Below are positions 35,994 through 64,000 of a stretch of DNA of 64,000 nucleotides, piece by piece; position 1 is the stretch's first letter, and every line of letters begins with the position of its first letter. Origin of the DNA: Periconia sp. R9002 (Eukaryota > Ascomycota > Dothideomycetes > Pleosporales > Periconiaceae); assembly GCA_023627715.1 (NCBI GenBank), contig JAMAHW010000018.1, positions 248,001 to 312,000 on the forward strand, written 5' to 3'. A program made the translations under genes and the position numbers. A model generated the notes under the pieces. That model was not told where the DNA came from, did no database searches, and saw only the letters and a program-made list of their open reading frames with translations.

Positions 35994-36467
35994 GGCGATG
36001 GATGGTGGAAGTGAAGGTTGGCGGGAGCGCAAGCAATTGGAGTTGGAGTACCAGGGCAGCGGTTCTGGAATCTGGACTGTGTGCGGGATGCGATGATGCT
36101 ATTACCGAGCCACCCAGCAGGCGGGCAGACAGACAGGCGATGTTGATGTTTTCTTTGGCGCTTAGTACATCAGGACGTGTGGCATGGTACTGGGAGTGTA
36201 CGCGTAAATATAGATTTATATATACACGTACCGTACAGGCTGCCTTGGGATGAGGTATGCATCGAGTGTCGTCTGCTCTTGTAGCTGCCGGGTCCGGGCG
36301 CACTTGGCGAGCTTGTTCTGCAAGGGAAAGGCCGCCCTCCATCATCCAACATCGCTCCAGACTTCTTCCCACCTAGTCACGTGTTATCTGCCATCATTGG
36401 TCTCAGTTATTGAGCGATACGTTCGATCCCACATTTTGACTCTCAGGCGCGCAATCAGGTGTCTGGG
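35994..36467. other. Divergent promoter region, Vps17 and EF-G2
   Basis: 474 bp shared upstream region; no specific element recognised. Confidence 0.5.
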
Positions 36468-42181: not shown

Positions 42182-42991
42182 ATGGCTCCCCTGTTCAATA
42201 TGTCTCGTTTTATGCTTCTTGCTCAAGCATTGGCTTCGTTCCAGCTTGTATCTGCTCAAACACCCCCGGGCTTTAGCCCATCCACGGACAACCAGCTCCA
42301 TGTGTCGTACCCCAACGGCCTGGAAGTCTTCCCAGGTCGCTCCATCTCTATGGCCGGTAAGTAAACTTTCTCTCAACCAATCATGATTCTGTTAAAGTTT
42401 GCAATGAGACTAACAAACATGAAACTCAAGACACCATTCCCCAGCCTACTCTGGAACCAACAGCCCTCCAACCATCCACTAGTTACATACTCTTCCTCAT
42501 CGATCTTGACGTCGTCCTCGAAGGAAACGCAACCCACCTTCTTCACTGGTACTCACCCGACTGGCGCATCTCCGCTGACACAGGCGTCTTCATCCCGCCT
42601 CCCTCCTCGTCCCAAAGCGCTGAATACGTCGGCGCTCAACCTCCTCCCGGAACTAAGCACCGCTACGTTTTCCTCCTTTTCGAGCAACCAGCCAACTACC
42701 AGTTCCCATCCTGCTTTGGAAACATCTGGCCTCCGACTGTCGAGACTCGAGCAGGTTTCGATTTGGATCTCTTCATTGAGATTACGGGCTTGGGGTCACC
42801 TGTGGCTGCGAACTGGTTCTTGGTCGAGAATACCGAGCAGACTACGAGTACGCCTGTGGCCACCACGACGAGCCTTAGTGCACCACCTTGTGACGCTACG
42901 GGTACTGCTGCCAGGTAAGTTGTTTCGACCTTCTTGTTAGGGCGTTTCACGTGCTGATCTGAGATATAGGAAGGGGAGATTGGAGTTGTAA
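42182..42991 (+). CDS. PEBP/YbhB-like secreted protein (maleidride-cluster type)
   Basis: Phosphatidylethanolamine-binding-protein fold. Relatives in maleidride clusters help dimerise the anhydride monomers. Exons 42182..42356, 42431..42914 and 42970..42991 join to 226 aa. A signal peptide is visible (MSRFMLLAQALASFQLVSA, cleavage likely after Ala25). Core motifs: SYILFLIDLDVVLEG (altered DPDxP loop), LLHWYSPDW, VGAQPPPGTKHRYVFLLFEQ (the GxHRY motif), RAGFDLDLFIEITGL and AANWFLVEN. After the core there is a Thr/Ser-rich tail. The last exon encodes only seven residues plus the stop. An alternative start is Met7. The altered anion-site Asp/Pro residues suggest a role other than phospholipid binding (inference). 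Confidence 0.88.
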
Positions 42992-43493
42992 TAGGGCTTT
43001 TGGTAAGTTTTGAGGAATCAAGACGGGCATCAGGTCTATCAGCAATGTGGAGAGGGGCTTAGTGCGTACAAATTTTAAGCGATAGATAGGGAGGTTGTTT
43101 GCTTTGAGAGATTATCACTCGTCATTCATTTCATGCTGTAATTCCGTATCAACGGTCCTGACGATCATTTACTTAGAATAGATGGAAATGGAGGTGGACA
43201 GATTACATACAAGGATAGACCTTCTGGAGCAATCCATTATCGTATCCACTTTTAGATTGGCAGCCTAGATCGTTGCACCCGGGGACTTTCGTGATGTGTT
43301 TCTATCAACCGGTGGAGATATCAACAATGCTGATGAATGCATATGCCCGGACACTAGCAGATAAGTGCACTGATTAGAAAGATTTCGGGTCAAGAAGACA
43401 TAAATCAAACGTTGTACTCGACTGTTGGGACTGGTACACTGTACTCTTACAATCGAAACCTTTCTAGACCTGATCTTGATCACATCCAGAACA
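42992..43493. other. Intergenic region upstream of FSH hydrolase
   Basis: 502 bp between same-strand genes. Contains the CCCGGGGACTTTC element at 43278..43290. No other gene. Confidence 0.5.
43278..43290 (+). promoter_or_regulatory. Candidate cluster regulator site (FSH hydrolase)
   Basis: CCCGGGGACTTTC, about 205 bp before the hydrolase ATG. It resembles the site in the KSI/PKS promoter (CCGGGAACTTT). Confidence 0.4.
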
Positions 43494-44314
43494 ATGCCTG
43501 CTCTTAAAATCCTATGCCTGCATGGCGCAGGAACCAGCGTAAAGGTACGACTCGTCTCACAGCTGATGACACTATATGCCGATGACTTACATTCAACCCC
43601 GTCCAGATCCTTCAATCACAACTCGGTACGCCACCCCCCTTACGATCGTATCACTCGATCAAAACCCTTGACATCTCGCTCCCTCGTTGTAAGCCCACCA
43701 CTGACCCCACATAAGCACCCATCATGCGCGACCTCCAATCCGACCACAGCGCAACCTTCCACTTCACTGAAGGCGAGCTCGATTCCGTGGCAGGACCTGG
43801 CGTCGCCAACGTCTTCGAAGGCCCCTACTACTCCTACTATAACTGGCCGCGCTCGCACGATGACGACGGCTCCACCATCACAGAAGCCTACGAGCAACTC
43901 CTAGACGTGATCGACACCGACGGGCCTTTCGACGCTGTCATTGGTTTCTCGCATGGCGGCACGCTCGCCTGCGGGTTTCTGGCACACTGGACAAAGCAGC
44001 ACCCTTACGAAGCGCCTCCATTCCGATGCGCTATCTTCTTCAACAGTCTACCCCCTTTTGTGGTGAAGAGCGATGGAGAGTTTGCGTTTGAAAGGGGACT
44101 GAAGGGGTATGTGAACATTCCGACGCTGCATGTGCTTGGGAGGAGAGACTTTGTGTATGAGCATTCGATGAAGTTGTATAAGGTTTGCGAGGAGAAGAAG
44201 GCGAGAATTATCGTGCATGAAAAGGGCCATGAGATTCCTAGTGATGTGAAGGTTGTGAAGAAGGTCACGGCAGCTATTAGGGAGATGAGCCATGAGATTA
44301 TGTTCTTGTCTTAA
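43494..44314 (+). CDS. FSH-family serine hydrolase (thioesterase candidate)
   Basis: Alpha/beta hydrolase of the FSH1 family. Relatives in fungal PKS clusters release the acyl chain from the HR-PKS. Exons 43494..43544, 43607..43625 and 43716..44314 join to 222 aa. The oxyanion strand is LKILCLHGAGTS. The nucleophile is Ser102 in IGFSHGGTLA, the acid is Asp in LGRRDFVYEHS, and the base is His in HEKGHEIPSD. The catalytic triad is complete. The middle exon is only 19 nt and encodes ILQSQL; skipping it would shift the frame. It lies between the PEBP and citrate synthase genes on the same strand. No signal peptide, so a cytosolic enzyme. Confidence 0.9.
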
Positions 44315-45100
44315 ATTTTTGGTGGGTTTTCGCTTTATACATTTTTTCTGCGCCATGGGTATAATATGGACGAACCTGAGGCGCAAGGGGCTATTGTTTC
44401 TTTCCTTGAAACTAGGACATAGAGCTTTCATTACAATACTGTAGACTCATTAGAGTAGATATAGAATGAGATAATTTCAAGACTATTTCGCTGGGGATAG
44501 TTGCAGGTAGAATTGAGTGAAAAACACTATCACTAGCACTGTGTATCATTCATCTGTTGTGGGGAATAGACACCGTCATTATGAAGTGCAATGTAAGAAC
44601 CAGAGTTTATCCAAGAAATTTGAGATGAAAGATTCAGCCATAACACAAACGTCTACGAGCATTGTTCGCGTCACAAGCGCTGAGGCTTTACTGTCTTAGT
44701 TTTCTTCATGAAATCTACATTAACAGTGAATATCAGTTGATAAATACGATTATTTTGGAGAAAAAAGAAAAAGAGATTATTGCACCATGAATCAGATTAC
44801 CAACGCTCTTTACACAAGAAATATAGCATGATAATCTTCAACAGGTCTGGTGCGCATATGTAAGCTTACGTGCGGCAAATTGCAAGTTCAATGAAGTCTC
44901 CGTAAAGTCGGTGTCTAACCAAGCGACCAATAGGGTTCTTTTCTCGCGAAAACCACTTACGGGAGTGAGGATCAGCCTCGCCGGGGCCATCAAGAACCAT
45001 AAACAGCAATTATAAAATACAAAACTGCCTCGAGAACATCAAATGTGGTGAAAAATAATACTTTCACGTTTGAAATCTGAACCAGCAACATCTCATCACC
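44315..45100. other. Intergenic region upstream of alkylcitrate synthase
   Basis: 786 bp, A/T-rich. A CCGGGG element lies at 44981..44986, about 115 bp before the ATG. A 60-codon frame at 44517..44699 has no features. Confidence 0.5.
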
Positions 45101-46641
45101 ATGTCGAAGGGTACCCTATTCGTGCGAGATTCACGCACTTCGACAGACTACGAGATACCGATCGAACGAAACTCGATATCAGCGAGCGCATTCAAGAAAA
45201 TCAAAGCTTCCGATCCAAACGCAAATCGAGCGGATAAAGTGGGCGGTGGGCTACGATTGTACGACCCCGGCCTCCAAAATACTACGGTCGTAGAAACTGG
45301 AGTGAGCTTTGCGTAAGTCACTATAGGTCCAAGAAAACTCTAGATATCTACTGATTGAAAAACTAGAGATGGAGATAGAGGGCTATTGCTGTTCCGTGGG
45401 TACAGCTTGGAGCAGTTGTGGGGCAGCGAGTTCGAGGACATGTTGCACCTGATGATATGGGCGAAATATCCAACTCCTCTACAAAGGGAATCACTGCGAA
45501 AAGCAATAGCAAACGAGATGCTCAAAGTTCCAGGAGACGTAACAACCACAGTTCACTCCTTCCCGTAAGTCCCAACTCTTCAAGTTAATTCATACGCTCC
45601 ACTAACGCGACTCCGCAGAAAAACAACTCCTCCGATGCCGATGGTATTCGCGGGGCTGGCAGCCTACTTAGGAGCTAATTCTGATATGATACCCGCATCA
45701 AATGGAGCAAATATTTACCAAGGAAACCCCGAAAAAACAGATCAGGCAATTATTAAGACTTTCGCAGCATACGCAGTTGTCGTAGGATTAGCCGCCAGTC
45801 ATCGAAAAGGCATCAAATTTACGCCTCCCTCAAAAGACAAATCGTACATCGAGAACCTCTTCACGATGATGGGGATGGTAGATCCATCGACGGGACACCC
45901 TGATCCAATAAAACTCTCGTGTTTTCGCCGATTCGCGGCACTGAACATGGACCATGGAATGGCGTTGGCGGTGTTCTCAACACTCGTAACCGCTTCATCT
46001 CTATCAGATCCCGTATCCTGCCTCATAGCTTCATTAGCGGCCGCATACGGACCGCTTCATTTCGGAGCAACAGAAGCCGCGCATTTGACTCTTCACAATA
46101 TCGGAGGCAAAGCAAACGTCCCAGCTTTCATCGAAGAGGTCAAACAGGGTAAACGAAAGTTATTCGGTTACGGACACCGCACGTACAAAGGCGTTGATCC
46201 GCGTGTGCGACCTATCAAGGAACTCGTGGAAGACTCGGGAGCGAGTTTGGATCCGCTGATTGAGGTCGCGAAGGAGATTGAGAGATTGGCTTCAGCAGAT
46301 GAGTATTTTACGAAAAGGGGACTGCATCCGAATGCGGACTTTTATGGCAACTTTGTGTTCACCGCAATGTAAGTTGTCTACGATATTTTTCCACGGACTT
46401 GCCACTGAAAATGAATCTAGGGGCTTTGAATCGTCTTTCATCCCCATTGCGATGTTGTCGCAACGTTTGATCGGAATTATGGCGCATTGGCGCGAGGCCA
46501 TGTGTAAGCTGCGCATACGCTCGACTAGCTACTGGAAATCGTTGCTGACTGCATGTAGTGCAAGGTATCAAGTTGTTCCGTCCGTCCCATATCTACACCG
46601 GACAGACTGAGCCTGTTCCCAATATAGCTTCAAAGCTGTGA
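45101..46641 (+). CDS. Citrate synthase-like enzyme (alkylcitrate synthase)
   Basis: Condenses an acyl-CoA with oxaloacetate. In maleidride clusters the acyl group is the PKS product, giving an alkylcitrate. Five exons: 45101..45312, 45367..45564, 45619..46368, 46421..46503 and 46559..46641, joining to 441 aa with all phases matching. Catalytic residues are present: His249 (ALNMDHGMAL), His323 (GYGHRTYKGVDPR) and Asp377 (HPNADFYGNF). LLFRGYSLEQLW and GPLHFGATEAAHL are family blocks. There is no mitochondrial presequence (MSKGTLFVRDSRTS), unlike the housekeeping citrate and methylcitrate synthases, so a dedicated cytosolic or peroxisomal enzyme; the terminal SKL tripeptide is a perfect PTS1. 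It is followed 256 bp later by the partner dehydratase. Confidence 0.93.
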
Positions 46642-46762
46642 ATTAGAATGATATGTATTCCGATATGTTTTGGAGGCTGTAATGGTTGACAAACGGGGTT
46701 TGGTAATTGTGTTGAGGAGGGACCGCGGTTGTCTAAAACAAACCGGCAACTTAACTACCAAA

Positions 46763-46773
46763 CCCGGGCTTTT
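46763..46773 (+). promoter_or_regulatory. Candidate cluster regulator site (PrpD-like gene)
   Basis: CCCGGGCTTTT, 125 bp before the PrpD-like ATG, in the 256 bp gap after the alkylcitrate synthase. Confidence 0.4.
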
Positions 46774-46897
46774 CAAGAGTAGAGCTAGATACATGATGCG
46801 ATGTGAATCTTTACTTCTTCGTAATGTCCAGTAAGATAGATAAAACTAAGAAATTTATTTTTTGGTCTGCGAAACTCTTTCAGCTGGTGTGCGCAAA

Positions 46898-48411
46898 ATG
46901 TCCACACAATACGATCAAATCATTGTCGACATCAAAGATTACATTTTCCATCATGAAATCAAGAATGACACTGCGTTTCAATGTGCAAAAATCGCACTTC
47001 TTGATGCTTTAGGTTGCGCCATCGAAACGGTGACCAAGAGCAAGGACTGTCGCAAGTTGTTGGGCCCGATCGTGCCGCGCTCCTTTACCTTCGATGGATT
47101 CAGGCTACCGGGGACAGCGTACCAGCTGGATCCTCTGAAGGGCGCATTCGACTTGGGCACACTTATTCGCTATTTGGATCACAACGATGCCATCGCTGGT
47201 GCGGATTGGGGCCACCCTTCAGGTAAACTTGAAAACACAGCTCTCATCGAGAAGTTTCTAACTGCTGCACAGATAACCTTGGAGCTATTCTCGCTGTTTC
47301 GGATTGGCTTGATCGTGGCATCAAAGGAGGAAAAATCGCTCACAAAGGCCCTGAGTTGACGATGAATACTCTCCTCATAGCTCTGATCAAAGCATATGAG
47401 ATACAAGGATGTTTCCTCCTACGCAATGCTTTCAATGCCCACGGGCTCGACCACGTCATTCTTGTCAAACTAGCTTCCACCGCGGTAGTTTCATGGCTGT
47501 TAGGCTTAAGTGAAGAAGAGACAATGGGGGCTATTTCTCACGCTTTTGTGGACGGTCATCCTTTGCGCACGTATCGCCAAGGCACCAACACAACTCCCCG
47601 TAAAGGATGGGCGGCGGGCGACGCATGTATGCGAGCAATTCATATAGCATTGCTGACGCAAGCTGGTCAGCCTGGTTCTAAATCCGCGTTGACCGCACAG
47701 CGATGGGGTTTTTACGATACTTTGTTTGGAGGCAAGACGTTTGAACTGCCCAAAGCGTATGGGAATTGGGTCATTCAAAATATCATCTTCAAAGTAATGC
47801 CGGTTGAAGGACACGGGATCGCAGCCGTCCAAGCGTCACTACAACACGGGAAAATGATGAGAAATCGAGGTTTGAAACCGGAACGCGATATCGCGAAGAT
47901 CGAGATTCGGACTATGGCGGCGGCTGTTTTGATCATCGACAAAAGCGGTCCGTTAAACAATGCTGCGGATAGAGATCACTGTATGCAATACATGGTTGCT
48001 CTTGCGATTCTCAAGAACGCGATACCCGAAGCGGAAGATTATAAGAATGACAGTCCGTGGGCAAACGATTCTAAACTTTCCGATTTGAGATCGAAAATTT
48101 ATCTGCATGAGGACCCTAAGCTAACTGAGGACTATATGAATTTGGACAAGAAGAGTCTTGCATCTGGAGTAACAGTCTTTTTTAGCGATGGAACGGTATC
48201 GGAGGAGATTCTTGTTGAGTTTCCGGTGGGCCACGCGAAACATTCAGACACCAAAGTGGCTGTAAGTGAAAAGTTCAAGAGGAACATGGCCTTGATGTTT
48301 TCCGAAGACGAGGTGAAAGGAATCACAGATGCAGTGGATGTGGCGGAAACTAGTATTTCGGATTTTGTAGATCTTTTTGTTAGGGATGACAGGACTGAGG
48401 CGAAACTATGA
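46898..48411 (+). CDS. MmgE/PrpD family 2-methylcitrate dehydratase-like (alkylcitrate dehydratase)
   Basis: Predicted to dehydrate the alkylcitrate to the unsaturated tricarboxylate that leads to a maleic anhydride. Exons 46898..47222 and 47273..48411 join to 487 aa, the normal length of the family. Recognisable blocks: CAKIALLDALGCAIE, RSFTFDGFRLPGTAYQLDP, GTLIRYLDHNDA, ADWGHPSDNLGAILAVSDW, KLASTAVVSW, GMRKGWAAGD-like TTPRKGWAAGDACMRA, and KVMPVEGHG. The N terminus (MSTQYDQIIVDIKDYIF) has no presequence, unlike the mitochondrial housekeeping PrpD. It sits directly behind the alkylcitrate synthase on the same strand, the usual pairing in maleidride clusters. The C-terminal residues AKL also fit a PTS1, like the SKL of its partner, suggesting a shared peroxisomal location. 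Confidence 0.92.
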
Positions 48412-48717
48412 GCAATTCGCATATTTTGCTTCAATCATTTGTAAGCATTGGCTGGATAAGTGTGCACTAAAACGCATTGTATGGCAATTTTTGAGATGTA
48501 TCAGTATCTACCCGGATGTATTTTCTCCATCAAACTAAAAGATTTGGTCAGACTGCGCTGAAATGACCATCGAAATCATCCGGGCACAAACACATTAAGC
48601 AAAGAGATCCCGCAACGATGCTTCTGTCATAAGCAGTACCATCATATTTCAAAAAAAAAAGTTTCTCACATCTGTGGCTCTGCAAGTTGCCATCAATCAA
48701 TCATACAAACCGCTCCC
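48412..48717. other. Intergenic region upstream of MFS transporter 1
   Basis: 306 bp. Contains CCGGGCACAAA at 48580..48590, about 130 bp before the ATG, and a poly-A run close to the start. Confidence 0.5.
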
Positions 48718-50374
48718 ATGTCTCAACTTACCGGACCCGCCGTAGCTATTGCTAATCCTCCAGAAGCAACCATGGTCCTTAATCAAGAAAATGGGGAGCA
48801 AGATAACGAAAGAACACCTCTGATTCAGAGATCAGCAGACACAGAGAGATATTCTATCTTCACAGACACCCAGAAGCGGTTCATCATCATTGCAGCATCT
48901 ATTGCGTCTACATTTTCACCTTTGTCGGCGAACATATACTACCCTGCATTGAATTCATTGGCGGCTGATCTACACGTCAGCCATTCACTCATAAATCTGA
49001 CAATCATGAGTTACATGGTAGGGACAATACCTTGTCTGGTATCACATGTTGTGTAATTGACTAGTCCCTAGATTTTCCAAGCCCTCGCTCCGACCGTCGC
49101 AGGATCCCTCGCCGATGTCGTAGGACGCCGCCCCATCTACATTGCATGCTTCACCATCTACATCGCGGCCAACATAGGCCTTGCAATACAAAGAAACTTT
49201 CCAACCCTCCTGATCCTCCGCGCGGTACAAAGCTCCGGGAGCAGCGCTACCGTTGCCATTGCCAGCGCAGTTGCTGCTGATATCGTCACATCTGCTGAGA
49301 GGGGCATGTACATGGGTATCGCATCCCTTGGAGCCATACTTGCTCCGTCGCTGGGTCCTATCATCGGGGGCTTCCTGAGTCAATATTTAGGCTGGCCATC
49401 GATATTCTGGTTCTTAGCAATAGCAGCGACACTGTTCATAGTGCCGTTCCTGTTGATCTTCCCTGAGACTTGTAGAGCGGTCGTGGGTAACGGATCAGTG
49501 AAGGCTCCTTGGATGAACCAGACATTATTGCAGTGTTTAAGTCAGCGAAAGAAGGGTAGAGACGAGGAGAGTGATCTTGGACAACCTTCTGTCTCCAACA
49601 AGAAGCGTCAACTTATCCTTCCCAATCCGCTCGTTACCCTACGCATTCTGTTCCAACTCCCGACCGGACTTATCATGTTGGGCAACGGCATTGTATTCGC
49701 CAGTTACTATGCCGTCATGTCAAGCATACCGTCTCAGCTTGAAATAATATACGGTCTGAATGATTTGCAGATTGGGTTAGCATTCATTCCAGCTGGACTT
49801 GGAACTTTATGCAGTGCCTTTATGAACGGGTATTTGGTAGACTGGAATTATAAGAGGGTAGAGAAAAAACTGGGAGGAAATTTGAACAGAGCCCAAGGGG
49901 TAAAGAGTGCCAAAAATTTCCCGGTGGAGAAAGCAAGGCTTCAAATCGCGCTCCCAATGATGGTATGTAACTGGATATCTCTATCAGGCTTATCTAATTG
50001 AATTGTAGCTTCTATCAGCCATTGCTATTGAGTTATACGGCTGGTCCATACACTTGGAGAAACCGATGGTTTTTCCACTCACAACACTTTTCGTTATCGC
50101 TTTTTCGATTACAGGAGCTTACAATGTTATGAATCTGCTGATAGTAGATCTCAACTATTCTACCCCTGCTACTGCTATGGCGGCCAATAACCTAGTGAGG
50201 TGTATACTGGGCGCCGCAGCTACTGCAGCAGTTCACCCTCTGCTCAATTGGTTGGGAAGATGGTTGACCTATACGGTGGTTGCTGGTGCTATTCTCGCTG
50301 CTAGCCCGTTGATACTGGCCTCGTACCAATGGGGCTTTGCTTGGCGGACAAGCAAGGGAGCAGACGGTATTTGA
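48718..50374 (+). CDS. MFS transporter (DHA1 type) 1
   Basis: Twelve-helix major facilitator, drug:H+ antiporter-1 type, probably exporting the cluster product. Exons 48718..49017, 49072..49962 and 50009..50374 join to 518 aa; all introns are phase 0. A roughly 55-residue cytosolic N terminus precedes the first helix (FIIIAASIASTFSPLSANIY). Motif A-like GSLADVVGRRPIYIA follows helix 2. LILRAVQSSGSSATVAIASA and the antiporter motif C-like LGAILAPSLGPIIGGFLSQ are clear. The central loop is long and charged (RKKGRDEESDLGQ). A close paralogue lies at 58305. Both share YYPAL/YLPALxxL, RRPIYIA and LILRAVQSSGSS segments. Confidence 0.92.
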
Positions 50375-51138
50375 GTAGTTTCTGATACTTAAATCCTGCT
50401 GTGGCCAGATCTCGAAACTATTCGTCTATAAGAACATGTAATAGATGTCAATTTGTCCCTGTAGAGACCACAGCGATGGTTACAAATACAAAAAGAACTT
50501 AAACTGGATCTGCCTCTTCCCGTGAACACTGCGCGTATCATTCTAATATAACGAATGGATTAAATACATACATATGATACAATTTCTCATTGGATGGATC
50601 TGAGAGAACACTACCGCATGCACGCATCACAGAATCTAGGGTTGTAAAGTATTCATGTGACTTCGCCAAGAGAAACCATGATGATATTCCTGCAATGGAA
50701 GCCTATGTACCGATTCATCTATCATGACTAACACTTTTCATGATGAATTGTTATCTGCTCAGTAATCTCCGGGTTGTGTACTAGCATTCAGTGAAGTTTG
50801 GCAATATGGCCGGGGTCCGAGCTATTCACTCTCACGTAATGTGCCCGGGGTGATCACCGAAAACTCCTAACCCAGCCTTCTAGAACTTGGAAATCAACAG
50901 ATTATTTTTTCGAAAATAGAAGTCAAAGCGGAGGAACTTGGACATCTAAAACTCACCGCATGCCCGGTAAATCTTCCGGGACGTCCGACGGCTCTGTGAT
51001 GAATCACTCTTTCTACCCGAAATCGAGAGATTTCGTAATCTAGGTAGATTTTGCACTCTGAAAAAAAACTAGAGATTCCATCGTCTACCTGTCTTGTTGA
51101 TTTTGGAGTTTTTGTTGCCATATTCCACAGCCATCACC
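50375..51138. other. Intergenic region upstream of KSI-like gene 1
   Basis: 764 bp. The part near the KSI start holds two CCCGG-centred elements (50844..50850 and 50963..50980). No gene. Confidence 0.5.
50963..50980 (+). promoter_or_regulatory. Candidate cluster regulator site (KSI-like gene 1)
   Basis: CCCGGTAAATCTTCCGGG is an inverted repeat with CCGG arms, about 160 bp before the ATG. Its core matches 13 of 16 bases of the reverse complement of the element in the KSI2/PKS promoter. A second CCCGGGG copy lies at 50844. Confidence 0.5.
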
Positions 51139-51843
51139 ATGCGGTTTCTATCTCCTAAATCACACCTGCTCGTCGTCGCTTCATCGGCGTACACTATCAT
51201 CGCATCATCTCAAAAGTCTGGGTTCAACTTCACAAACCCTTCCTTCGATTGCAAAATCATATCCCAGCCTACCATCTACGACATATTCTCGTCGCTTGGC
51301 GACAATGTCGCAAATGTTGCCGACCATATTGCACCGGACGTCGATCTCACCATCGTGGGCCACCAACCACTTGCAGGCCATTACCATGATATGAAACACT
51401 TTTATGTCAATGCTCTGTACCGACTCAACAATTGTATCAGGCTGCGATATCCTGACGAGTTCAAAACAGAAGTCTTGGCGGTTACAGGGGGGTGCAACCA
51501 AGCATGGAGTGTGCAGGAAGTGCTATTTAGCGGGAAGGCCAATAACGGTATGTTAAAAGTCTTACCTGAGACTGAAATAGGGTATCAGGAACATATTAGC
51601 TAAGATAGCATTGCAGGAGAAAAATGGTCAATGGTCAATGTTTGGATCACCCGATGGAAAGACGAGAAGATGGTGGAGATACGAACGTATGTGGATACAG
51701 CAGTTGAGGTGAAACTTCTATTCGATAATGAGGTTTGGACCAACTCTACTACGCATACTGATCATAGAGATTTCGTGCCGGGGCCTCGAGGAATGCCCGC
51801 AATGGCGGAAATCGAGGCAATGGGTAGAAAGGGTGATTTGTGA
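51139..51843 (+). CDS. Ketosteroid isomerase/SnoaL-like secreted protein 1 (candidate maleidride dimerising cyclase)
   Basis: NTF2-like fold inferred from size and the pattern of the paralogue. Relatives in maleidride clusters catalyse or steer the dimerisation of maleic anhydride monomers. Exons 51139..51547 and 51617..51843 join to 211 aa from the ATG at 51139. The N terminus is a signal peptide or anchor (HLLVVASSAYTIIASS). Blocks shared with the paralogue at 60522..61306: PDVDLTIVGHQPLAGHY, HFYVNALYR, GGCNQAWSVQEV, GKANNG, VNVWITRWK, FVPGPRGMPAM. The intron sits at the same codon (after ANN) in both genes, so they arose by duplication. Two Cys (in NNCIRL and GGCN) are conserved and may form a disulfide. 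Confidence 0.85.
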
Positions 51844-52977: not shown

Positions 52978-54504
52978 TTAAACATTCCACAACTCCACCC
53001 TTCCAATCACACTCCTAAGCCTCAATCCAGTTTCAGCAAGCATGATTTCTGCCATCCTCGCACTGCAATCAGGCGTCACACCTTGTGTGGCCTTCTGCAA
53101 GCTCTCTAGCCCACCAACTAAGTTGAATAAACGTATTTGCAATAACCGTTTGATAAAATTGTTTTTTTCCTCCACGATCTCAAACTCACCAATCCTCACA
53201 GCAACACTTTGTGCTGACGCTAAAATGCTGTTTTCGTTCTGCGATGGCCCTGAACTGCCAGAGAAGCGCATGAGATTGGAGATGTTTGGAGAGTTGTTGG
53301 CATTTTCGTTTAGACGTTTGAGGTTAGAGAAGGATTGAGAAGGCGTGTTACGGTTGCTCGTGCTAGATTTTGCTTCGAGCATTCCGACTACGCGGTCGAG
53401 AAGTATAGCTTGCAGTAAAAGTTGGTTGGAGTGTTTTCCAGCGCAGACATTGCATTTCAGCACTTTTTCATTATGAGATAAGACGTCTCTATCCAGTCGA
53501 AGTGCTGTGTCGAGAGTGACGGAAGCATTGTTGGGTGCAATCTCATCGAGCGATAGAAGGAGGTGAAGTGTGGATTTGTAGCAGTTACAGCGGGGTGATA
53601 GAATAGATGGGGTTTTGAACTGGCTGAAAGCGGTTGCGTCTGTTGAGTTGATGAGATAGGAGAGGTCGGGTTCCGGTATCATAGAGTCGAGGGACACATG
53701 GTTGTCCATATCAGGGGAGTGTTCTGAGGCTGATGAAACCGAGAAGTCCATAGGCTCCAAGTCGACGAAGTTGTTGAAGATCAAGGAATCCTGGTCAAGA
53801 TTGAATACATTGGAGTTCATGCCATCATCCCACGCGGGCGACTGATTTCCACTCGGAGATACTGTGGCCGCTGTGTTCAACGAGAGACGGCTGTGAAAAT
53901 TTGGTAGATTTTCAAGTGTCCTTCCTTGGAAAAGAGTATTGAATGAGGTATCGAGCGAGCAATCTTCGATCGTTGGTGACTGGGTGATCTGAAATAGATC
54001 ACCTTGATTTGTAGGATTGATAGTACTGAGGGAATAGTCTGCGTAACTCGGAAAATTTCCATCCAATATCAGTGAAGAAGGGTCCGTTGTTGTTGATACT
54101 GGAATTAAATTTGCTGCCGAGGCTATAGGCTCTTGCGATTTCGGACTTGCTATTGGGGTACCACTAGATAACTCTGGGGTACTGTTGGGGTTATTTGCTT
54201 GACGTTTAACCGATCTTTTCACAGGCTTCGGGTCTTCTCTGGATGCACTGCCCCTCTCCCCAGCTCTGTCTTGATGGCCCTGCTCACTCTGTGAAGGAGG
54301 TCTCTGCTTTCGCGGCCGCCCCATTCTTCTCGAGAGACTGTATACACAGTTTATCTTGTATATTTGACATCGGAAGCATTGTGGCATATCGCGGCTACAT
54401 CGAATTTTGGCTGAGATGCAAGCATCGCAGGTTGAGCGAAGTTTAGGCTGCTTCTTTGCTCCAGGCGCCGTGTCGTCGCCGGAGCTAGCGTTATGTGGAA
54501 CCAT
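52978..54504 (-). CDS. Zn2Cys6 transcription factor, AflR type (cluster regulator)
   Basis: Probable pathway-specific activator. Intronless, 508 aa. The binuclear zinc cluster is complete: C26-x2-C29-x6-C36-x6-C43-x2-C46-x6-C53, followed by a basic linker (RRMGRPRKQRPP). The middle is Ser/Asn/Thr-rich. The C-terminal half has the AflR-type domain: SPRCNCYKSTLHLLLSLDE, KVLKCNVCAGKHSNQLLLQA, IGEFEIVEEKNNFIKRLLQIR. The position inside the cluster and family knowledge make it the likely controller of the CCCGGG-centred promoter elements (inference). The neighbouring gene at 56789 carries a similar C-terminal domain without the zinc cluster. Confidence 0.93.
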   Translation of the reverse strand: MVPHNASSGDDTAPGAKKQPKLRSTCDACISAKIRCSRDMPQCFRCQIYKINCVYSLSRRMGRPRKQRPPSQSEQGHQDRAGERGSASREDPKPVKRSVKRQANNPNSTPELSSGTPIASPKSQEPIASAANLIPVSTTTDPSSLILDGNFPSYADYSLSTINPTNQGDLFQITQSPTIEDCSLDTSFNTLFQGRTLENLPNFHSRLSLNTAATVSPSGNQSPAWDDGMNSNVFNLDQDSLIFNNFVDLEPMDFSVSSASEHSPDMDNHVSLDSMIPEPDLSYLINSTDATAFSQFKTPSILSPRCNCYKSTLHLLLSLDEIAPNNASVTLDTALRLDRDVLSHNEKVLKCNVCAGKHSNQLLLQAILLDRVVGMLEAKSSTSNRNTPSQSFSNLKRLNENANNSPNISNLMRFSGSSGPSQNENSILASAQSVAVRIGEFEIVEEKNNFIKRLLQIRLFNLVGGLESLQKATQGVTPDCSARMAEIMLAETGLRLRSVIGRVELWNV

Positions 54505-56788: not shown

Positions 56789-57554
56789 TCAAACCCCGAT
56801 CAACCCAGCCAAAATAATTAGCTTCTCCATGGTTTCAGCTACAGACGTTTCACAAGCTCTCAGCAGACCGCCCTGATTTGCGCCTTCGGATTCATATGAT
56901 GCTGAAACGCCTTGCTTCTCCAACATAGCGCTGAACTTGATCAGACTGCGGCTCAGAAGAAGACGTGCTAACAGTCTTGCGTCATCACCGTTCAAATCGA
57001 GTTGCCCCATTCTCATTGTGCTTGGAACGCACACCGTCTTTTCATTGCTTGGTGGCGAAATACCCACGGTTGAGGTCAAACGTGGGTGAGAGCGCACATG
57101 CAGTGTTGAGCCCATATCCATTCCCTTATCATCTCTAAATCCTAACAGGCCATATGCGTTGCATGCCGCGGTGTAAAAGTCCAAGATTCTTTCGGCTGTA
57201 GTAGTCAAAATGACGAGAGTGGTAAGGCTAGTGCGGCAGTGATTACATCCATGGATGTCGACCCACTGTTCGAATACGCCATGGCTGATACCCAGGATGC
57301 TTTCGAAATCGACCTGTGGTTGGTTTTGGAGTTCCATGATGGACTGAAAGGAGGAGTAGGAACAGTTGCAGCGTCTATTAGCGACAATGTCTTGCAGCGC
57401 CTAGAAAGAGAGTTCGTCGTCAGTGAGTGCCAAAATGCCCCTTTGTTTGGCCATGCCTTACTGAGTTCGCGTCATAGTTGGATGCAGATTTTAGAACCGA
57501 TTTTTGTTGATGTTGATTGGAGCTTGTAAACGAGGAATTTTGTGATAATGTCAT
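56789..57554 (-). CDS. AflR-type regulatory domain protein without zinc cluster
   Basis: Exons complement of 56789..57400 and 57462..57554 join to 234 aa from the first ATG in frame. The second exon starts ALQDIVANRRCNCSYSSFQS, which parallels SPRCNCYKSTLHLLLS of the intact regulator at 52978. GCNHCRTSLTTLVILTTTAE parallels KCNVCAGKHSNQLL..., and the end (LDLNGDDARLLARLLLSR) parallels its last helices. The upstream sequence on this strand, up to the MFS promoter, shows no Cys-rich DNA-binding domain. So this is either a truncated relic or a regulator acting through protein contacts. The frame is open and the splice sites are good (GTAAGG, CTAG), which argues against long decay. The start is uncertain, since the frame is open back to about 57602 with no ATG. 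Confidence 0.6.
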
Positions 57555-58304
57555 GGTTGATTTTTGTTTTTTTCGGACGGGGTGGCGCTCGAGGTCATAC
57601 AAAAGAGAAGAATTTATTCTCCTCAGCCGTCAGCTAAATCCTATCCTGGAACTACATACAAGGTAATAACGAGGCTGTCTGATGTGACCGTACAATAGAC
57701 CTACATAATTTCATGGTCTGTGCTAACCGTGCTAGTTTGATTGCAAGAGCTGCGCTTTGACGAATACAATACATACTCGTGGTTAATTCAATTGCAAACT
57801 TGGAAGGTGAATGCAGCTATTGCCAGAGGTACAAATCTTCCACTGTTTTAGTATGTTGAATTAATCTCTGTATTGTAAAAACCTGCCCCTCGAGAGAAAT
57901 TTCATTAGGTCAATGTCTCGACTCTCTAGAAGGATTGATCATTTTGATGATCAATGATTCGTGACCACACGACAAGAACGCTCAGTACAATGAATGTGTA
58001 TTCGAGTGTTGATATTATGAAAAATATCCTCGGGAACTAAACAAGATAGTGATCGGCAAATACTCGTACTGTAGTGACTGTACAAAATCTGAAAGGCATT
58101 GCGCCAGCCTAGTTGGGTTGACGGGTTTGTCTATTTCGGGTGGCGGCTTTCGGCCTAGCGACAAAAAGTAGCCCCGGATTTAGGTTAACACCGACGCGAC
58201 GCGATGTTTGATAGACTTCAAAACGTCCATCTCCATGAATGCCCATACCCTGATACCATGCAGATTTTTGGTTGTTAATATCTGTACTGTTGAACTTCCT
58301 CGCC
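57555..58304. other. Divergent promoter region, truncated regulator and MFS 2
   Basis: 750 bp, A/T-rich. A CCCCGGATTTA element lies at 58172..58182, about 130 bp upstream of the MFS 2 ATG. The palindromic stretch TTGATCATTTTGATGATCAA is at 57935..57954. Confidence 0.5.
58172..58182 (+). promoter_or_regulatory. Candidate cluster regulator site (MFS 2)
   Basis: CCCCGGATTTA, about 130 bp upstream of the MFS 2 start; similar to the other CCCGG-plus-A/T elements of the cluster. Confidence 0.35.
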
Positions 58305-59972
58305 ATGGCAGCATCACAGGGAACAGCATATTCCGAAAAAAATCCAAATTTGCAGCAGGATGTTCCACCCACCAACACCTCCGAGGTTGCAACCTCGCCA
58401 GCAGAAGCAGATACAGAAGTACCCGAAGTAGCTTATTCAATCTTTTCAAAGCGAGTCAAAGTTTTCATCATTGTCATGTCTGCACTGAGCAGTTTGTTTT
58501 CTCCGGTATCATCTTTGATCTACTTGCCCGCTCTCGATGTCCTCACCAACTTCTACCACGTCTCCGCCGCTCGCATCAATTTGAGTGTCACCACCTTCCA
58601 GATACTGCAGGCTCTCGCTCCGATGTTTTTTGGGGATATGGCCGATCAAATCGGGAGGCGGCCAATATACATCGCTACTTTTATTATATACGTCGGAGCC
58701 AACATCGGTCTCGCTTTGCAGAGCAGCTACGGAGCTCTACTTATTCTCCGCGCCGTTCAGAGCTCCGGGAGTAGCGGGGTGATTGCCCTAGGTAGTGCAG
58801 TCATGGCCGACATCGCTACCCCCGCTGAACGCTCTGGTTACATCAGCTACGTACAAGCGGGGATGATGGTGGGACCAGCTCTCGCACCAACAATCGGCGG
58901 TCTTCTTACCCATTTTCTCGGCTGGAGAGCAATTTTCTGGTTCCTCACTATTGCCAGTGGTATATATATGATTTTATACATCCCATTTGCGCCGGAGACA
59001 TGCCGCAAGGTTGTCGAGAATGGGTCCATCCCACCCCAGAATTGGAACAGAAGTGCTTGGAATGCATTCCAAGATCGAAAAAACAAGAAACTGGAAGGCC
59101 ATGACTATACGGCCAGGGAAACTGAGAGACAATCAAGAAAGCAAGCGCTTGCAGCGAAACGGAAAGTAGCACTTCCAAATCCGCTAAAAGCATTGCGCAT
59201 CATCGTCGAAAAGGATGTTGCTCTCATAATGCTATTGACCTCTCTCATGGTCACTGGGTTTTATATGATTATGGTTCCTGTTCCATCTATTTTCGCAGAC
59301 GTTTACAGCTTCAATCAGATCCAAATTGGGCTTTGCTATCTGTAAGTTCTATCTAAGGCGAAGCGAGAAACATAACTGACACCCATCAGGCCCTTCAGTA
59401 TTGGCTCGATTGTAGGTACGGTACTAGCAGGACGGTTTCAAGACTACAACTTCCGCCGCATAGCAAAACAGATCGGGCATCCCATACACCTACGCAAAGG
59501 TGACGACCTCCGCCATTTCCCCATCGAAAAAGCAAGACTCTCCATCATCTGGATACCGTCAGTGCTCGCCGGTGCGGTCACGACATGCTGGGGCTGGGTA
59601 TTGGCTTCGCGAACCAGCCTTGCAGCACCTTTGGTTCTATTTTTTATTGGAGGTGCAGCGATACCGGCCACGATGAGCATGCAGCAGTCATTGCTAGTAG
59701 ATTTGTATCCGCAATCACCTGCGACTGTTACTGCGGCTTTGAACGTGTGCAGATGCTTGATGAGCGCCGCCGGGACAAGTATTGTTCAATACATGATTGA
59801 CGCAATGGGCTTGGGATGGTGTTACACATTCGTCGGGCTGGTGCTTCTCGCATCAACACCTATTAGCTTTATTGGCATGAAGTGGGGCCCTAAGTGGAGG
59901 GAAGAACGATTTTTGCGGATGGAGAAGAAAGCGGAAGAGAAAAAGGCGAAGGCATTGAATGCTAGCCGTTAG
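58305..59972 (+). CDS. MFS transporter (DHA1 type) 2
   Basis: Second drug:H+ antiporter-type exporter in the cluster, paralogous to that at 48718. Exons 58305..59341 and 59390..59972 join to 539 aa from the ATG at 58305; the upstream in-frame TTG is not used. The N-terminal 48 or so residues are hydrophilic. Helix 1 is VKVFIIVMSALSSLFSPVSS, then DMADQIGRRPIYIATF (motif A), LILRAVQSSGSSGVIALGSA, and MMVGPALAPTIGGLLTHFLG (motif C-like). The central loop is highly charged (RETERQSRKQALAAKRK). The C terminus is Lys/Glu-rich (MEKKAEEKKAKALNASR). The intron positions differ from those of MFS 1, suggesting separate recruitment or old duplication. Confidence 0.92.
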
Positions 59973-60521
59973 TGCAATAGCTTTTGCGGACATCAGACTG
60001 TATCAACACCGCTGGACATTTTCGAGTAAATAAAAAGACGAGCATATAGAGTATAATTAGCTTAGATTGTAATTTCAACGATGTGAAAGCCTGGTCTCAT
60101 GATCGACTGCGTCATATTCGCTATGACGTACGACATCTTGAGATGATTCGATTTCAAATCATATCATACAAGTGGCAAGAAGCATTATGCATCTGCATTA
60201 CCAATGGCATGTCAGCGAGGAATGTATCTCTAAAAGTGTTGAGTGATTGCACACAGAAACTCATTTCGGTGAGTTTTGTGCTCTCTTCGTTGCAGAGCAT
60301 GAACAAAAAAACGTGATTTACATGGACTACTAACTTCGCAAAAAAAACTTTTTTGGAGGGCAAGAGTGATAGTCTTTTACAGAAACAAGCTATCTCCTAG
60401 TCGAGCAAGCAACATGGTAATTGTAAGCTCAAGTTCAATCTATGTATCCTTAACGATGCACTTCATGCACTCCCCTCCGTCACAATCGATGTACATATCA
60501 ATGGTTCCCCGTAAGTCTCAA
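59973..60521. other. Convergent 3' intergenic region
   Basis: 549 bp between MFS 2 and KSI-like gene 2. No gene; open frames on both strands are unsupported. Confidence 0.5.
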
Positions 60522-61306
60522 TCAAGATTTTTGGCTATTTTTTAAGAACTCCGCGAGTTTCTTCATATCCGGCATTCCTCTCGGTCCAGGCATGAAATTT
60601 GTATGCTCCGTCTCAGTCGTAGAGTTACTCCAGCTCTCATTCTCGTAAAGAAGCCGCATAACTACTTGCGCATCGATGTACGTGCGCACCTCGTGGATCT
60701 TGCCGTTGTTCCAGCGCGTCACCCATACGTTGATGAATTCGAAATATCGCCCTATTCCAAGGGTTATGAGATTGCATGTAAAATAAAAAGTTTTTGGTGA
60801 AGGAAAACAAAGCACGAGGAATCAGTGAAGTGAAGGCGAAGATACATACCATTATTTGCCCTGCCTTTAAACTCCACCTCCTGCACACTCCACTCTTCGT
60901 CGCACCCGCCATGGATATGCAACAGCTTCATCTTGAAGTCCCCAGGGTATGTTTCTGTAACGCATGACTTGATGCGCCAGAATGCATTTACGTAGAAGTG
61001 TCTAAAGTCGGAGTAATGACCCGAGACAGGGTGATGGCCAACGACAGTGAAGTCGACATCAGGCGCCAGCATTAGGGCGATGTAATCGGGGTCTTGGGTC
61101 CATTTTTTGTATTCAGAGTGTATGTATGGTTGCGAGACGTATTCGCAATCGTTGCTAGGGTTGATCAGATAGAAGTTTTTGTCAATACCGAGCGGGGAGA
61201 TGGGTTTGGAAGAGAGTGGCTGTTGATTAAGTGAAGCTTGATTTGAGATGATTGCAGTTGCTTGTGTTGCAAGCCAAGCGATGAGTAAAGATAAAAAGTA
61301 AGCCAT
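60522..61306 (-). CDS. Ketosteroid isomerase/SnoaL-like secreted protein 2 (candidate maleidride dimerising cyclase)
   Basis: Paralogue of the protein at 51139. Exons complement of 60522..60751 and 60850..61306 join to 228 aa. A clear signal peptide is seen (MAYFLSLLIAWLATQATA, cleavage likely after Ala18). Shared blocks: PDVDFTVVGHHPVSGHY, HFYVNAFWR, GGCDEEWSVQEVEF, GRANNG, INVWVTRWNNGK, EVRTYIDAQVVMRLL, FMPGPRGMPDM. The intron lies at the same codon as in its paralogue. It shares a 408 bp divergent promoter with the PKS, which implies co-expression. Known maleidride clusters commonly carry two such proteins. N-glycosylation sites (NESW, NSTT) fit a secretory route. Confidence 0.87.
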
Positions 61307-61714
61307 GCCGGCTGTCGAACACGGGATGCTTTAGGATTTGGGATGCAAAAGGAATTGTTGGATTGCGTTTCAGTGTCTTGGGCTGTTTTCTGAATGTGTT
61401 GAGATGAACGGGTATTTCAATGGTTCCCGGGCTAAAATCTCGCTACATCATTTCCCTGCACAACATTTCCTGCTGGACACAAACCTCCATGGATCCCGAG
61501 CCCCGGGAACTTTACCGGTAAGTTTACATGTGACTTCGAGAATAGATAGAGAAATATCCCCACAGAAGGCCCAGAATTTCTGAGGAGTAACTTTCACCCC
61601 AATCTATGCTTTCCCTCTGTGCTCGAGAGAGAAAAGGACTGTCGTTATCCATGAGACAGCGAGTACATTTCTCAACTCTTTAGTTCGAATCTGCGGATCA
61701 AAACATCTGCCACA
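61307..61714. promoter_or_regulatory. Divergent KSI-like 2 / PKS promoter
   Basis: 408 bp shared by both genes. Two CCCGGG elements are seen: CCCGGGCTAAAA at 61426..61437 and CCCGGGAACTTTACCGG at 61502..61518. The second has CCGG arms spaced like those in the KSI-like 1 promoter. Regulation by the cluster Zn2Cys6 protein is inferred. Confidence 0.55.
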
Positions 61715-64000
61715 ATGACCCCCTATCTTACCAGCCATGTAGACGGCTTTTCCAAGCCCAAAGATGGCACTCGGGAAGACAAGTCCATGCCTATCGCTGT
61801 GGTAGGCATGTCCTTCCGTGGCCCAGGAAGCGCCAACAGCGTGGAGAATTTATGGAAGATGATTAGCGAGAAGCGCGAGGCACGAACGACGATTCCAAAG
61901 TCAAGATGGAACAACGCTGCTTTTCATCATCCAAACTACGAGCGACATGGGTCGCATAATGTGGAGTATGGGCATTTCTTCTCGGAAGATATCTCGAAGT
62001 TCGATGCGCCGTTCTTTAACATGACGAGCACCGAGGCGGCAGCGCTCGACCCGGCTCAACGACTACTTCTCGAATGCACTTACGAAGCGTTGGAAAATGG
62101 CAAGTCCCCTCCATCATTTTCCTAGATGCCCGTCTGATTGTTTATATAGGCGGTATACCATTAAAGAACGTAGTCGGGACCAAGACATCCGTCTTCGTCG
62201 GATCGTTCGCGACAGACTACACCGACCTCCTCACAAGGGACCCAGAAGCTGTGCCAATGTATCAGTGCACCAACAGTGGTCAGTCGCGTGCAATGGTAGC
62301 CAACCGGCTCTCCTATTTCTTTGACCTTCATGGCCCAAGCGTGACAGTGGATACTGCGTGCTCTGGAAGCTTGGTTGCACTACATTTAGCATGTCAGTCG
62401 TTGCGTACCGGGGAAGCAAGTGCTGCTATTGCTTCAGGCGTGAATGTGATACTGAGTCATGAATTCATGAATACGATGACAATGATGAAGTGAGTCGTTG
62501 GACAACGTCTAAATTGCGTTGGCAGAGATTGACCAGCCTAGGTTCTTGTCACCTGATGGCCGATGCTACACGTTTGATGAACGCGGGAATGGATATGCGA
62601 GAGGTGAAGGTGTAGGTACCGTCTTTCTGAAGCCCCTGGAGGATGCTTTGAGGGATGGAGATACCATTCGAGCAGTCATTCGCGGCTCAGGTTCAAACCA
62701 GGACGGCAAGACATCAGGTATCACTTTGCCGAATCCTGTGGCGCAGGAGGCTTTGATCAGAGACGTCTACGAGAGTTCTGGTCTCGATCCGCTTGAAACC
62801 GGTTTTGTAGAGGCACACGGTACAGGTACCGCAGCCGGTGATCCTTTGGAGACACGCGCCTTGTCCAATCTTTTCTGTGGTCCTGATAGGCCCGCGGACG
62901 ATCCTTTGATGATTGGTTCGATCAAGTCCAACGTCGGCCACATGGAAGGTGTAAGTCTTAAAGGTACAAATAACTTCAAGATGTTACGTGGTAACAATTC
63001 AACAGGCAAGCGGCATCGGGGCAGTGGTTAAGGCCATTCTGATGCTTGAGCAAGAAGTGTTACTGCCAAATCGTAACTTTGAGACGCCCAACCCAAGGAT
63101 ACCTTTCGACGAGTGGAAACTCAAAGTTGCAACAAACCTGGAACCCTGGAAGAGAAAAGGTCCTTTGCGGGTTTCCATCAACAGTTTTGGATATGGAGGC
63201 TCAAACGCGCACGCAGTTCTCGAGTCGCCACGAACTTATATGAGATCACATGGACTCAGTGCGAGTTTTAGAATCGCCAAACAAATAGCCGCGCCTCTAA
63301 CTAACGGCCATATGAATGGGATCTCATCGGCACCTATCTCTAGCAATGATAATCATCACCCACGACTGTTCATCATCAACGCGTTTGACGAATCCGGAGG
63401 TCAGCGCCAGGCGAAATCACTGGCTAGCCATATCCGTGAGCAGAGCCAACTGAAAGAGACCGATTTCTTAGACGATCTTGCATTCACTTTGAACGAGCGA
63501 AGAACCGACTTCATCTGGAAATCCGCCATTGTTGCTGCGTCCTCCACCGAGCTCGCTTCATCTCTTTCGAAGCCACTCAAATTCTCAAGATCCTTCAAAA
63601 AGCCTGTTCTCGGTTTTGTCTTCACCGGCCAGGGAGCACAATGGTGCGGAATGGGCAAAGAGCTTTTGAGCACTTATCCAGTTTTCAAGAATGCCATTAC
63701 CAAGATCGGGAAGTACCTTCACAGCATTGGTGCTCCGTTTGATGTGGAAGACGAGATCACCAAGGACCCCAAGTTATCGAAGATCAACACGGCACTCTAC
63801 AGTCAGCCAATGTGTTCTGCTATTCAAATCGCTTTGATCGAACTCTTGAACTCATGGGATATCAAACCAACCTCAGTCACCGGCCACTCAAGCGGTGAAA
63901 TTGCTTCGGCCTATGCGATTGGAGCCCTGAGTATGGAGGACGCCATGGCTGTCGCCTACTACCGCGGTGTATGCTCAACCAAGATGCAGGAGAAAGCTGA
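61715..64000 (+). CDS. Highly reducing polyketide synthase, 5' part (KS-AT), truncated by window end
   Basis: Iterative type I PKS that builds the acyl chain. Exons 61715..62099, 62150..62489, 62542..62950 and 63006 to the window end (open) give about 709 residues of a protein that is normally 2300-2600 aa. KS: MPIAVVGMSFRGPG at the start, VDTACSGSLVALHLA (active Cys), VEAHGTGTAAGDP and IKSNVGHMEG (His residues). Linker, then AT: VFTGQGAQWCGMGKELL and TGHSSGEIASAYAIG (active Ser). No SAT domain precedes the KS, so it is a reducing rather than non-reducing PKS. The first intron uses a GC donor (GGCAAGT; 62100..62149). DH, MT, ER, KR and ACP would lie beyond the window and are not seen. Confidence 0.95.
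62100..62149 (+). other. GC-AG intron in the PKS gene
   Basis: A 50 bp intron with a GCAAGT donor and TATATAG acceptor. Splicing it joins EALEN to GGIPLKNVVG, as the KS consensus requires. The nearby GT gives the wrong frame. Confidence 0.75.

Follow-up and report, generated by a model that had tools for sequence, protein, structure and literature searches.

A probable complete maleidride gene cluster in Periconia sp. R9002 related to the heveadride/epiheveadride group

The window analyzed here, a stretch of 64,000 nucleotides of Periconia sp. R9002 (G000 C18:248001-312000, in an assembly of 42.9 Mb and 267 contigs), very probably holds a complete maleidride biosynthetic gene cluster, which is kin to the heveadride/epiheveadride group of Bipolaris and Wicklowia. 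Maleidrides are small, ring-shaped compounds of the antifungal type. According to PMC8851701, the maleidride core consists of a polyketide synthase (PKS), an AlnB-like hydrolase, an alkylcitrate synthase (ACS), an alkylcitrate dehydratase (ACDH), a maleidride dimerizing cyclase (MDC) and a PEBP type 1, the last being usual but not obligatory in such clusters. All six functions were present, with the hydrolase placed no more closely than in FSH1 and the ACS and ACDH recognized by their domains. For MDC1, the PKS and the PEBP, the nearest named relative was in each case a Bipolaris or Wicklowia protein; because the three agree and a genome search with MDC1 (E up to 0.001) found no MDC beyond the two of the cluster, the grouping of these genes is not ascribed to chance. 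Both genera belong to the Pleosporales. The cluster adds a new and distinct heveadride-group locus to the maleidride clusters already known.

A first-pass annotation of the window, made from its letters without database searches, had proposed a maleidride-type cluster with a complete core set, and this proposal held, the PKS being completed by the right flank. The genes that it listed, namely a highly reducing PKS (hrPKS), an FSH hydrolase, a citrate-synthase-like enzyme, a MmgE/PrpD dehydratase, a PEBP, two ketosteroid isomerase-like (KSI-like) proteins, two MFS transporters and a regulator, were all recovered by gene models or Pfam. The list was right as far as it went, but it lacked the CoA ligase at 39719-41693 and the second regulator, and it did not mention any targeting signals. 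Gene models were built by hand from three-frame translations; ab initio prediction overlooked several shorter genes. The models were judged by open frames, and those of the MDCs, the PKS and the PEBP also by relatives; all 12 cluster gene models had open frames and plausible introns. The right flank (C18:311001-368500) was joined to the window, and window numbering was kept throughout. The features are as follows.

36414-39170, + strand: EF-G-type gene, left neighbour of the ligase (Pfam EF-G)
39719-41693, - strand: AMP-dependent acyl-CoA ligase (ACL), 604 aa, 3 exons, end -ARL (Pfam AMP-binding 4.6e-57, AMP-binding_C 3.6e-17)
42182-42991, + strand: maleidride PEBP type 1, 226 aa, signal-peptide-like N-terminus (PBP Pfam 2.4e-10, main exon)
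43494-44314, + strand: FSH1-type serine hydrolase, 222 aa (Pfam FSH1 2.6e-26, main exon)
45101-46641, + strand: ACS, 439 aa, 5 exons, end -SKL (Pfam Citrate_synt 7.1e-81)
46898-48411, + strand: ACDH, MmgE/PrpD, 479 aa, end -AKL (Pfam MmgE_PrpD_N 3.2e-63, _C 4.3e-36)
48718-50374, + strand: MFS transporter 1, 518 aa (Pfam MFS_1 4.8e-47)
51139-51843, + strand: MDC1 (KSI-like), 211 aa, signal-peptide-like N-terminus, NST at residue 179 (relatives, tree)
52978-54504, - strand: Zn2Cys6 transcription factor, 508 aa (Pfam Zn_clus 1.3e-6)
56789-57554, - strand: AflR-like protein without zinc finger, 234 aa, putative co-regulator (AflR 0.0036, below cut-off)
58305-59972, + strand: MFS transporter 2, 539 aa (Pfam MFS_1 2.5e-48)
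60522-61306, - strand: MDC2 (KSI-like), 228 aa, signal-peptide-like N-terminus, NST at residue 195 (tree; SnoaL 8.9e-5, below cut-off)
61715-69239, + strand: hrPKS, 2407 aa, leaving the window at 64000 and ending at G000 C18:317239 (Pfam domains, relatives)

MDC1 and MDC2 were assigned by sequence as maleidride dimerizing cyclases of the two types seen in Bipolaris and Wicklowia. The MDC protein search matched 65 proteins, among them the W. aquatica 'maleidride dimerizing cylcase', the 'ketosteroid isomerase-like' proteins of P. fulvus and P. divaricatus, and ZopL4 of D. curvata. MDC1 was 63% identical over 99% to a Bipolaris maydis protein and 53% over 90% to the P. fulvus KSI-like protein; its identity to a B. 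victoriae protein, itself partial, was 69% over 86%. In a tree of 33 of the 65 relatives and the two window proteins, MDC1 grouped with the Bipolaris 'a' type (100/95), while the clade of MDC2 (100/99) also contained Wicklowia, Thermoascus and the 'b' type of Bipolaris; the wider clade around MDC2 (12 rows, 96/92) included the P. fulvus MDC. Both types are present in B. maydis. Since MDC1 and MDC2 lie in separate clades and are 45% identical to each other, they look like an old pair and not like a recent copy. The suggestion that the KSI-like proteins might belong to unrelated families was not borne out. An NTF2/SnoaL fold is possible: MDC2 has a sub-threshold SnoaL match and MDC1 none, and the MDC family profile matched the NTF2-like structure 3grd (0.0032); the predicted structure of a Bipolaris MDC relative had a pLDDT of 84.9. 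When MDC1 was searched against the 42.9 Mb genome (E up to 0.001), no third MDC came up, and a second maleidride cluster in the genome was therefore rejected. The B. victoriae MDC (P0004) and PKS (P0068) rows both gave a longest contig of 136,501 bases, consistent with one shared contig. In addition, a 1554-base contig (P0008) encodes a protein 80% identical to MDC2 over 176 columns, its last part resembling intron read-through; this closeness implies that a near relative of the window's fungus has been sampled elsewhere.

The hrPKS showed the architecture KS-AT-DH-degenerate MT-ER-KR-ACP, with Pfam matches to ketoacyl-synt, Acyl_transf_1, PKS_DH_N, PS-DH, ADH_zinc_N_2, KR and PP-binding. The motifs of the KS (DTACSGS, EAHGTG, SNVGH), AT (GHSSGE), KR and ACP were kept, and the ER site was judged by its Pfam match only. 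The PKS protein search gave 7923 matches, and the figures given here come from the best 120. Among these, three Bipolaris PKSs were 60% identical to the window PKS over 100%, and a PKS fragment of 1805 aa was nearer (67% over 74%). A quick tree was made of the window PKS and 31 of the 120, and in it these five sequences formed one group with 100% SH-aLRT support. The same 120 included ScyPKS, the PKS of the cornexistin producer P. divaricatus, and PhiA; none was named as W. aquatica. The possibility raised earlier, that the PKS might complete as a class with no link to alkylcitrates, was not borne out, the completed protein being an hrPKS with relatives from maleidride pathways. The methyltransferase region gave only a sub-threshold Methyltransf_31 match, and a regular expression for the S-adenosylmethionine (SAM) motif found no match in the window PKS or in seven of eight related PKSs, including ScyPKS and PhiA. 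This is in keeping with the known maleidrides, which lack methyl branches, and a degenerate C-methyltransferase (CMeT) domain has been reported for several maleidride PKSs (PMC8851701). The length of 2407 aa is slightly below the published range of 2416-2620 (PMC8851701). The first intron of the PKS gene (window 62100-62149) is apparently GC-AG, with the donor GCAAGT, and gene finders restricted to GT-AG introns could cut the KS domain there.

The PEBP search matched six proteins. The best match was 'maleidride PEBP type 1 [Wicklowia aquatica]' (59% over 98%), followed by a Bipolaris oryzae protein (57% over 85%); the last was a wasp protein at 31%. The window PEBP thus sits in the maleidride family, as the first-pass annotation had supposed, and in no unrelated one.

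The cluster was compared with those already described. The epiheveadride cluster of W. aquatica (accession OK490366 in PMC8851701) is alike in its PEBP type 1, in an MDC of the same clade as MDC2, and in a reported AMP-CoA ligase. However, an enoyl-CoA isomerase is reported for W. aquatica (PMC8851701), and none was found on the contig of the window (ECH_1, 18 of 18 candidates scored); no publication names this enzyme as a defining feature of the heveadride/epiheveadride group. An isochorismatase is implied for the Bipolaris and W. aquatica clusters by one sentence of PMC8851701, whose isochorismatase section omits them, whereas the window's cluster has none. Since neither enzyme is present, the cluster is not a plain copy. 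The clusters of B. maydis, B. oryzae and B. victoriae, which are probably for heveadride (PMC8851701), resemble it in the PKS (60% over 100%), MDC1 (63-69%) and PEBP (57% over 85%), but at about 60% identity they are divergent. The byssochlamic acid cluster of Paecilomyces fulvus has the same core set and two KSI-like genes, but it differs in having two PEBPs, an enoyl-CoA isomerase and a 'maleidride conserved protein' and in having no AMP-CoA ligase (PMC8851701, PMC9890510, PMC4982102). The zopfiellin and scytalidin clusters share the core set, two MFS transporters and a GAL4-type regulator with the window, but differ in carrying isochorismatase, enoyl-CoA hydratase and hydroxylase genes (PMC8162798). 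In the trees, ZopL4 and ScyPKS were farther from the window proteins than the Bipolaris ones.

Within the maleidride assignment, kinship makes it rather likely that the product is a heveadride-type nonadride, derived from a triketide and coupled head-to-head. A lightly decorated compound of this type is our best guess from the sequence, because three proteins point to that group and no tailoring genes were found. Heveadrides are head-to-head nonadrides derived from triketides, and W. aquatica makes epiheveadrides (PMC8851701, PMC9890510). The earlier statement that the particular maleidride could not be told can therefore be narrowed by the three proteins to the Bipolaris/Wicklowia (heveadride/epiheveadride) group, but head-to-head coupling stays a matter of kinship, because the way in which monomers are coupled is not mirrored in MDC trees (PMC8851701). 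It is possible, if somewhat doubtful, that this is instead a maleidride cluster of another chain length or coupling, giving a head-to-tail product like byssochlamic acid or a tetraketide homologue such as homoheveadride. Besides the failure of MDC trees to predict coupling, two coupling modes are possible from one cluster (PMC9890510), the P. fulvus MDC also falls in the wider clade of MDC2, and the reported enoyl-CoA isomerase of W. aquatica has no counterpart in the window's cluster. However, MDC1, the PKS and the PEBP all have their nearest named relatives in Bipolaris or Wicklowia and not in Paecilomyces. Other points that weigh against a heveadride-type product are the PKS identity of about 60%, which leaves space for another chain length, the difference in isochorismatase described above, and the scope of the P450 search, which found no P450 on the contig with only 92 of 318 candidates scored in the genome.

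In the ACS, three residues aligned with the catalytic residues of a solved citrate synthase, which we take to be His, His and Asp; this confirmed the three catalytic residues noted earlier. Its best solved relative was 9x0i, 'Citrate synthase 3, peroxisomal'. Two other citrate synthases in the genome were 25 and 27% identical to the ACS, and searching the genome brought up no further close alkylcitrate synthase. The ACDH was assigned by domain, and the hydrolase at the FSH1 level, which stands above the AlnB subfamily. A second MmgE/PrpD gene lies at G000 C83:2991-4476 (L023, L025), with pieces 36-49% identical to the cluster ACDH; it is perhaps the 2-methylcitrate dehydratase of primary metabolism.

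The acyl-CoA ligase at 39719-41693 probably belongs to the cluster. Its gene is divergent from that of the PEBP with 488 bp between them, its PTS1-like end is shared with the ACS and the ACDH (see below), and AMP-CoA ligases are reported in the Bipolaris and W. aquatica clusters, the latter from an epiheveadride producer (PMC8851701). It is unlikely that the ligase is a housekeeping neighbour and that CoA activation comes from elsewhere. The GC content at third codon positions (GC3) of the ligase gene, 0.63, is like that of the left flank (0.53-0.70, 5 genes), yet the PEBP (0.60) and hydrolase (0.64) genes are alike in this respect; the genome also contains many related ligases, the nearest of which are in pieces 45-51% identical to the cluster ligase. 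A point to be set against its inclusion is that its place in the pathway rests on position, C-terminus and published precedent.

Other points weigh against the maleidride assignment as a whole. Exon borders were set by hand, and the last short exon of the PEBP is uncertain in the hand model. MDC1 had a long end branch in the MDC tree (0.76) and no SnoaL match on Pfam. The PKS dehydratase motif, which we take to be HxxxGxxxxP, gave no match to one ill-made pattern, although the DH domains match Pfam; by eye, the sequence HKIQSSVVFP has Ser where the motif has Gly. The assignment was also made from genes, and the degenerate methyltransferase region of the PKS would fit a decayed or silent cluster. 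Such decay is very unlikely, since all 12 models have open frames, the KS, AT, KR and ACP motifs are present, and the SAM motif is likewise not found in most of the related PKSs searched. Most improbable of all is that MDC-like genes stand by chance beside a non-dimeric alkylcitrate cluster like those for oryzine, sporothriolide or squalestatin: those pathways too use an alkylcitrate synthase and partly a dehydratase (PMC8851701), but here there are two MDCs and a PEBP type 1, with an hrPKS as the source of the chain.

For the preferred maleidride cluster, the following pathway is proposed, with the order of reactions inferred from experiments on the byssochlamic acid, cornexistin and zopfiellin clusters. 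The hrPKS would make a short chain, probably a triketide, which the FSH1-type hydrolase would release as an acid. The acyl-CoA ligase would convert the freed acid to its CoA thioester, the ACS would condense this with oxaloacetate, and the ACDH would yield the maleic-anhydride monomer. Two monomers would then be joined into the ring by the two MDCs, aided by the PEBP type 1. The two MFS proteins may transport intermediates or product, and the Zn2Cys6 protein and its AflR-like partner may regulate the cluster.

The C-termini of the cluster proteins were examined for the peroxisomal targeting signal type 1 (PTS1), whose motif we take to be [SAC][KRH][LM]. PTS1-like ends were present in the ligase (-ARL), the ACS (-SKL) and the ACDH (-AKL), and absent from the other nine proteins. 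From residue frequencies, the chance of at least 3 such ends in 12 proteins would be about 5e-6 if they were independent. Because some fungal ligases and citrate synthases are peroxisomal, independence overstates the surprise, but the predicted location is not weakened. For comparison, such ends were found in 3 of 318 all-frame open reading frames (ORFs) of at least 100 aa in the window and flank (cluster ORFs included), in none of the 120 best PKS matches, and in none of the 65 MDC relatives.

MDC1, MDC2 and the PEBP had hydrophobic, signal-peptide-like starts, and the other nine cluster proteins were negative by a strict home-made rule (not SignalP), which was run a second time at one altered setting and against an additional control. 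A first, looser hydrophobicity score was dropped, as it failed to separate MDCs from PKSs, letting 48 of 119 PKS N-termini through. With the stricter rule, 47 of 62 MDC relatives starting with Met passed, including 26 of the 32 named full-length ones. Among the controls, 8 of 119 PKSs passed, and so did 2 of 24 first-Met ORFs; the latter were at least 250 aa long, came from the window and flank, and included cluster ORFs and unproven starts. The rule was weak for PEBPs, since one of five PEBP relatives passed at the first setting and W. aquatica passed only at the wider one. A stronger argument for the PEBP comes from its alignment with the W. aquatica and B. oryzae proteins: the three diverge before A-QTPPxFSPS and agree after it, the pattern that a signal-peptidase site would give. 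When 35 of the 65 MDC relatives were aligned (P0002 numbering), Cys41 and Cys122 were invariant, and the tripeptide at N182 was N-[S/G/A]-[S/T] in 35 of 35; both window MDCs have NST. Conservation of the Asn and the Ser/Thr with a variable middle residue is what would be expected of a used N-glycosylation site.

It is quite possible, and we put it forward tentatively from these motifs, that the pathway is split between compartments, with peroxisomal assembly of the monomer followed by MDC/PEBP dimerization in the secretory route or outside the cell. The PKS and hydrolase would be cytosolic, and the acid would enter the peroxisome, in which the ligase, ACS and ACDH would build the maleic-anhydride monomer. 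The monomer would move, perhaps via an MFS protein, into the secretory lumen or out of the cell, and would be coupled there by N-glycosylated, disulfide-bonded MDCs and the signal-bearing PEBP type 1. Such extracellular dimerization would have a precedent in fungi, in that an extracellular complex has been predicted for the last step of aurofusarin synthesis (PMC6266765). Several points weigh against the split. The starts of 15 of the 62 MDC relatives fail the rule (T. atroroseus, T. stipitatus and O. maius among them), although some resemble cut or mis-started models. Aspergillus oryzae transformants made byssochlamic acid with the PKS, hydrolase, two citrate enzyme, KSI-like and PEBP genes, a set that names no cluster transporter (PMC4982102), and import and glycosylation are read from sequence only. 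The idea was not found in the accessible (open-access) maleidride literature: 'secret...' did not occur in the main text of PMC9890510, PMC8851701, PMC12231587, PMC4982102, PMC8162798 or PMC12117428, 'signal peptide' together with maleidride occurred in one paper, where the maleidride is a passing mention, and 'peroxisom' together with maleidride occurred in two, PMC8851701, there only within a reference title, and a paper on Streptomyces.

If the split is real, its MDC half would apply to the whole MDC family, and it would suggest why the freed acid needs re-activation with CoA, why the ligase is clustered, and why this cluster, like those for zopfiellin and scytalidin, has two transporters. 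The control of dimerization by MDCs has been called 'cryptic', cell-free MDC experiments were very low yielding (PMC8851701), and the MDC lwmR2 alone did not appear functional in A. oryzae (PMC12117428). If MDCs are glycosylated and secretory and the monomer is peroxisomal, these difficulties may have a testable cause, and MDC assays should employ secreted, glycosylated enzyme. The cluster alone is of modest interest; the family-wide secretory marks of the MDCs and the three peroxisomal-type ends are the points worth testing. With two MDC types and few extras, the cluster is a clean system for the study of ring closure.

The flanks were examined for tailoring genes. Five ORFs of the left flank had EF-G, Vps5, WD40, thiamine-synthesis (HK, TMP-TENI) and eIF5-type domains. 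On the right flank, eight ORFs that were 90 aa or longer and had a positive coding score lay between 69.24 and 88.5 kb; they comprised a sub-threshold dynamin fragment, an amidase and six without family. Of six further ORFs to 116 kb, two matched Trm732, one had PH/VWA domains, one had no family, and SR-25 and Vps5 were each matched once below threshold. Pfam found no oxidase among these 14 right-flank ORFs, although genes with small exons could escape. Together with genome-wide searches that placed none beside the cluster (for P450, with 92 of 318 candidates scored), this led us to reject tailoring genes past the right edge; the first-pass observation that the cluster has no P450 or dioxygenase gene was thus extended to the sequence right of 64000. 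No TauD was found on the contig (46 of 46 candidates scored), and the sole 2-oxoglutarate-dependent dioxygenase match there was at C18:182948, about 104 kb from the cluster (33 of 33 scored). Isochorismatase genes are often inside maleidride clusters; the sole isochorismatase exon on the contig is at C18:249116 (window about 1116-1292, + strand; 15 of 15 scored), and at about 38 kb from the cluster it was rejected as a member. A difference in GC as proof of horizontal transfer was likewise rejected, because the GC3 values of cluster and right-flank genes overlap. The stretch at 69240-78900 (L009, L010) is gene-poor, with the dynamin-like fragment and low-complexity Gly/Leu ORFs, and may be a decayed boundary.

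Beside the Zn2Cys6 regulator lies the AflR-like protein without zinc finger (56789-57554), which is 26% identical to that regulator over 50 aa (E 0.003). Judged from its sequence, it may be a co-regulator, or else what is left of a duplicate.

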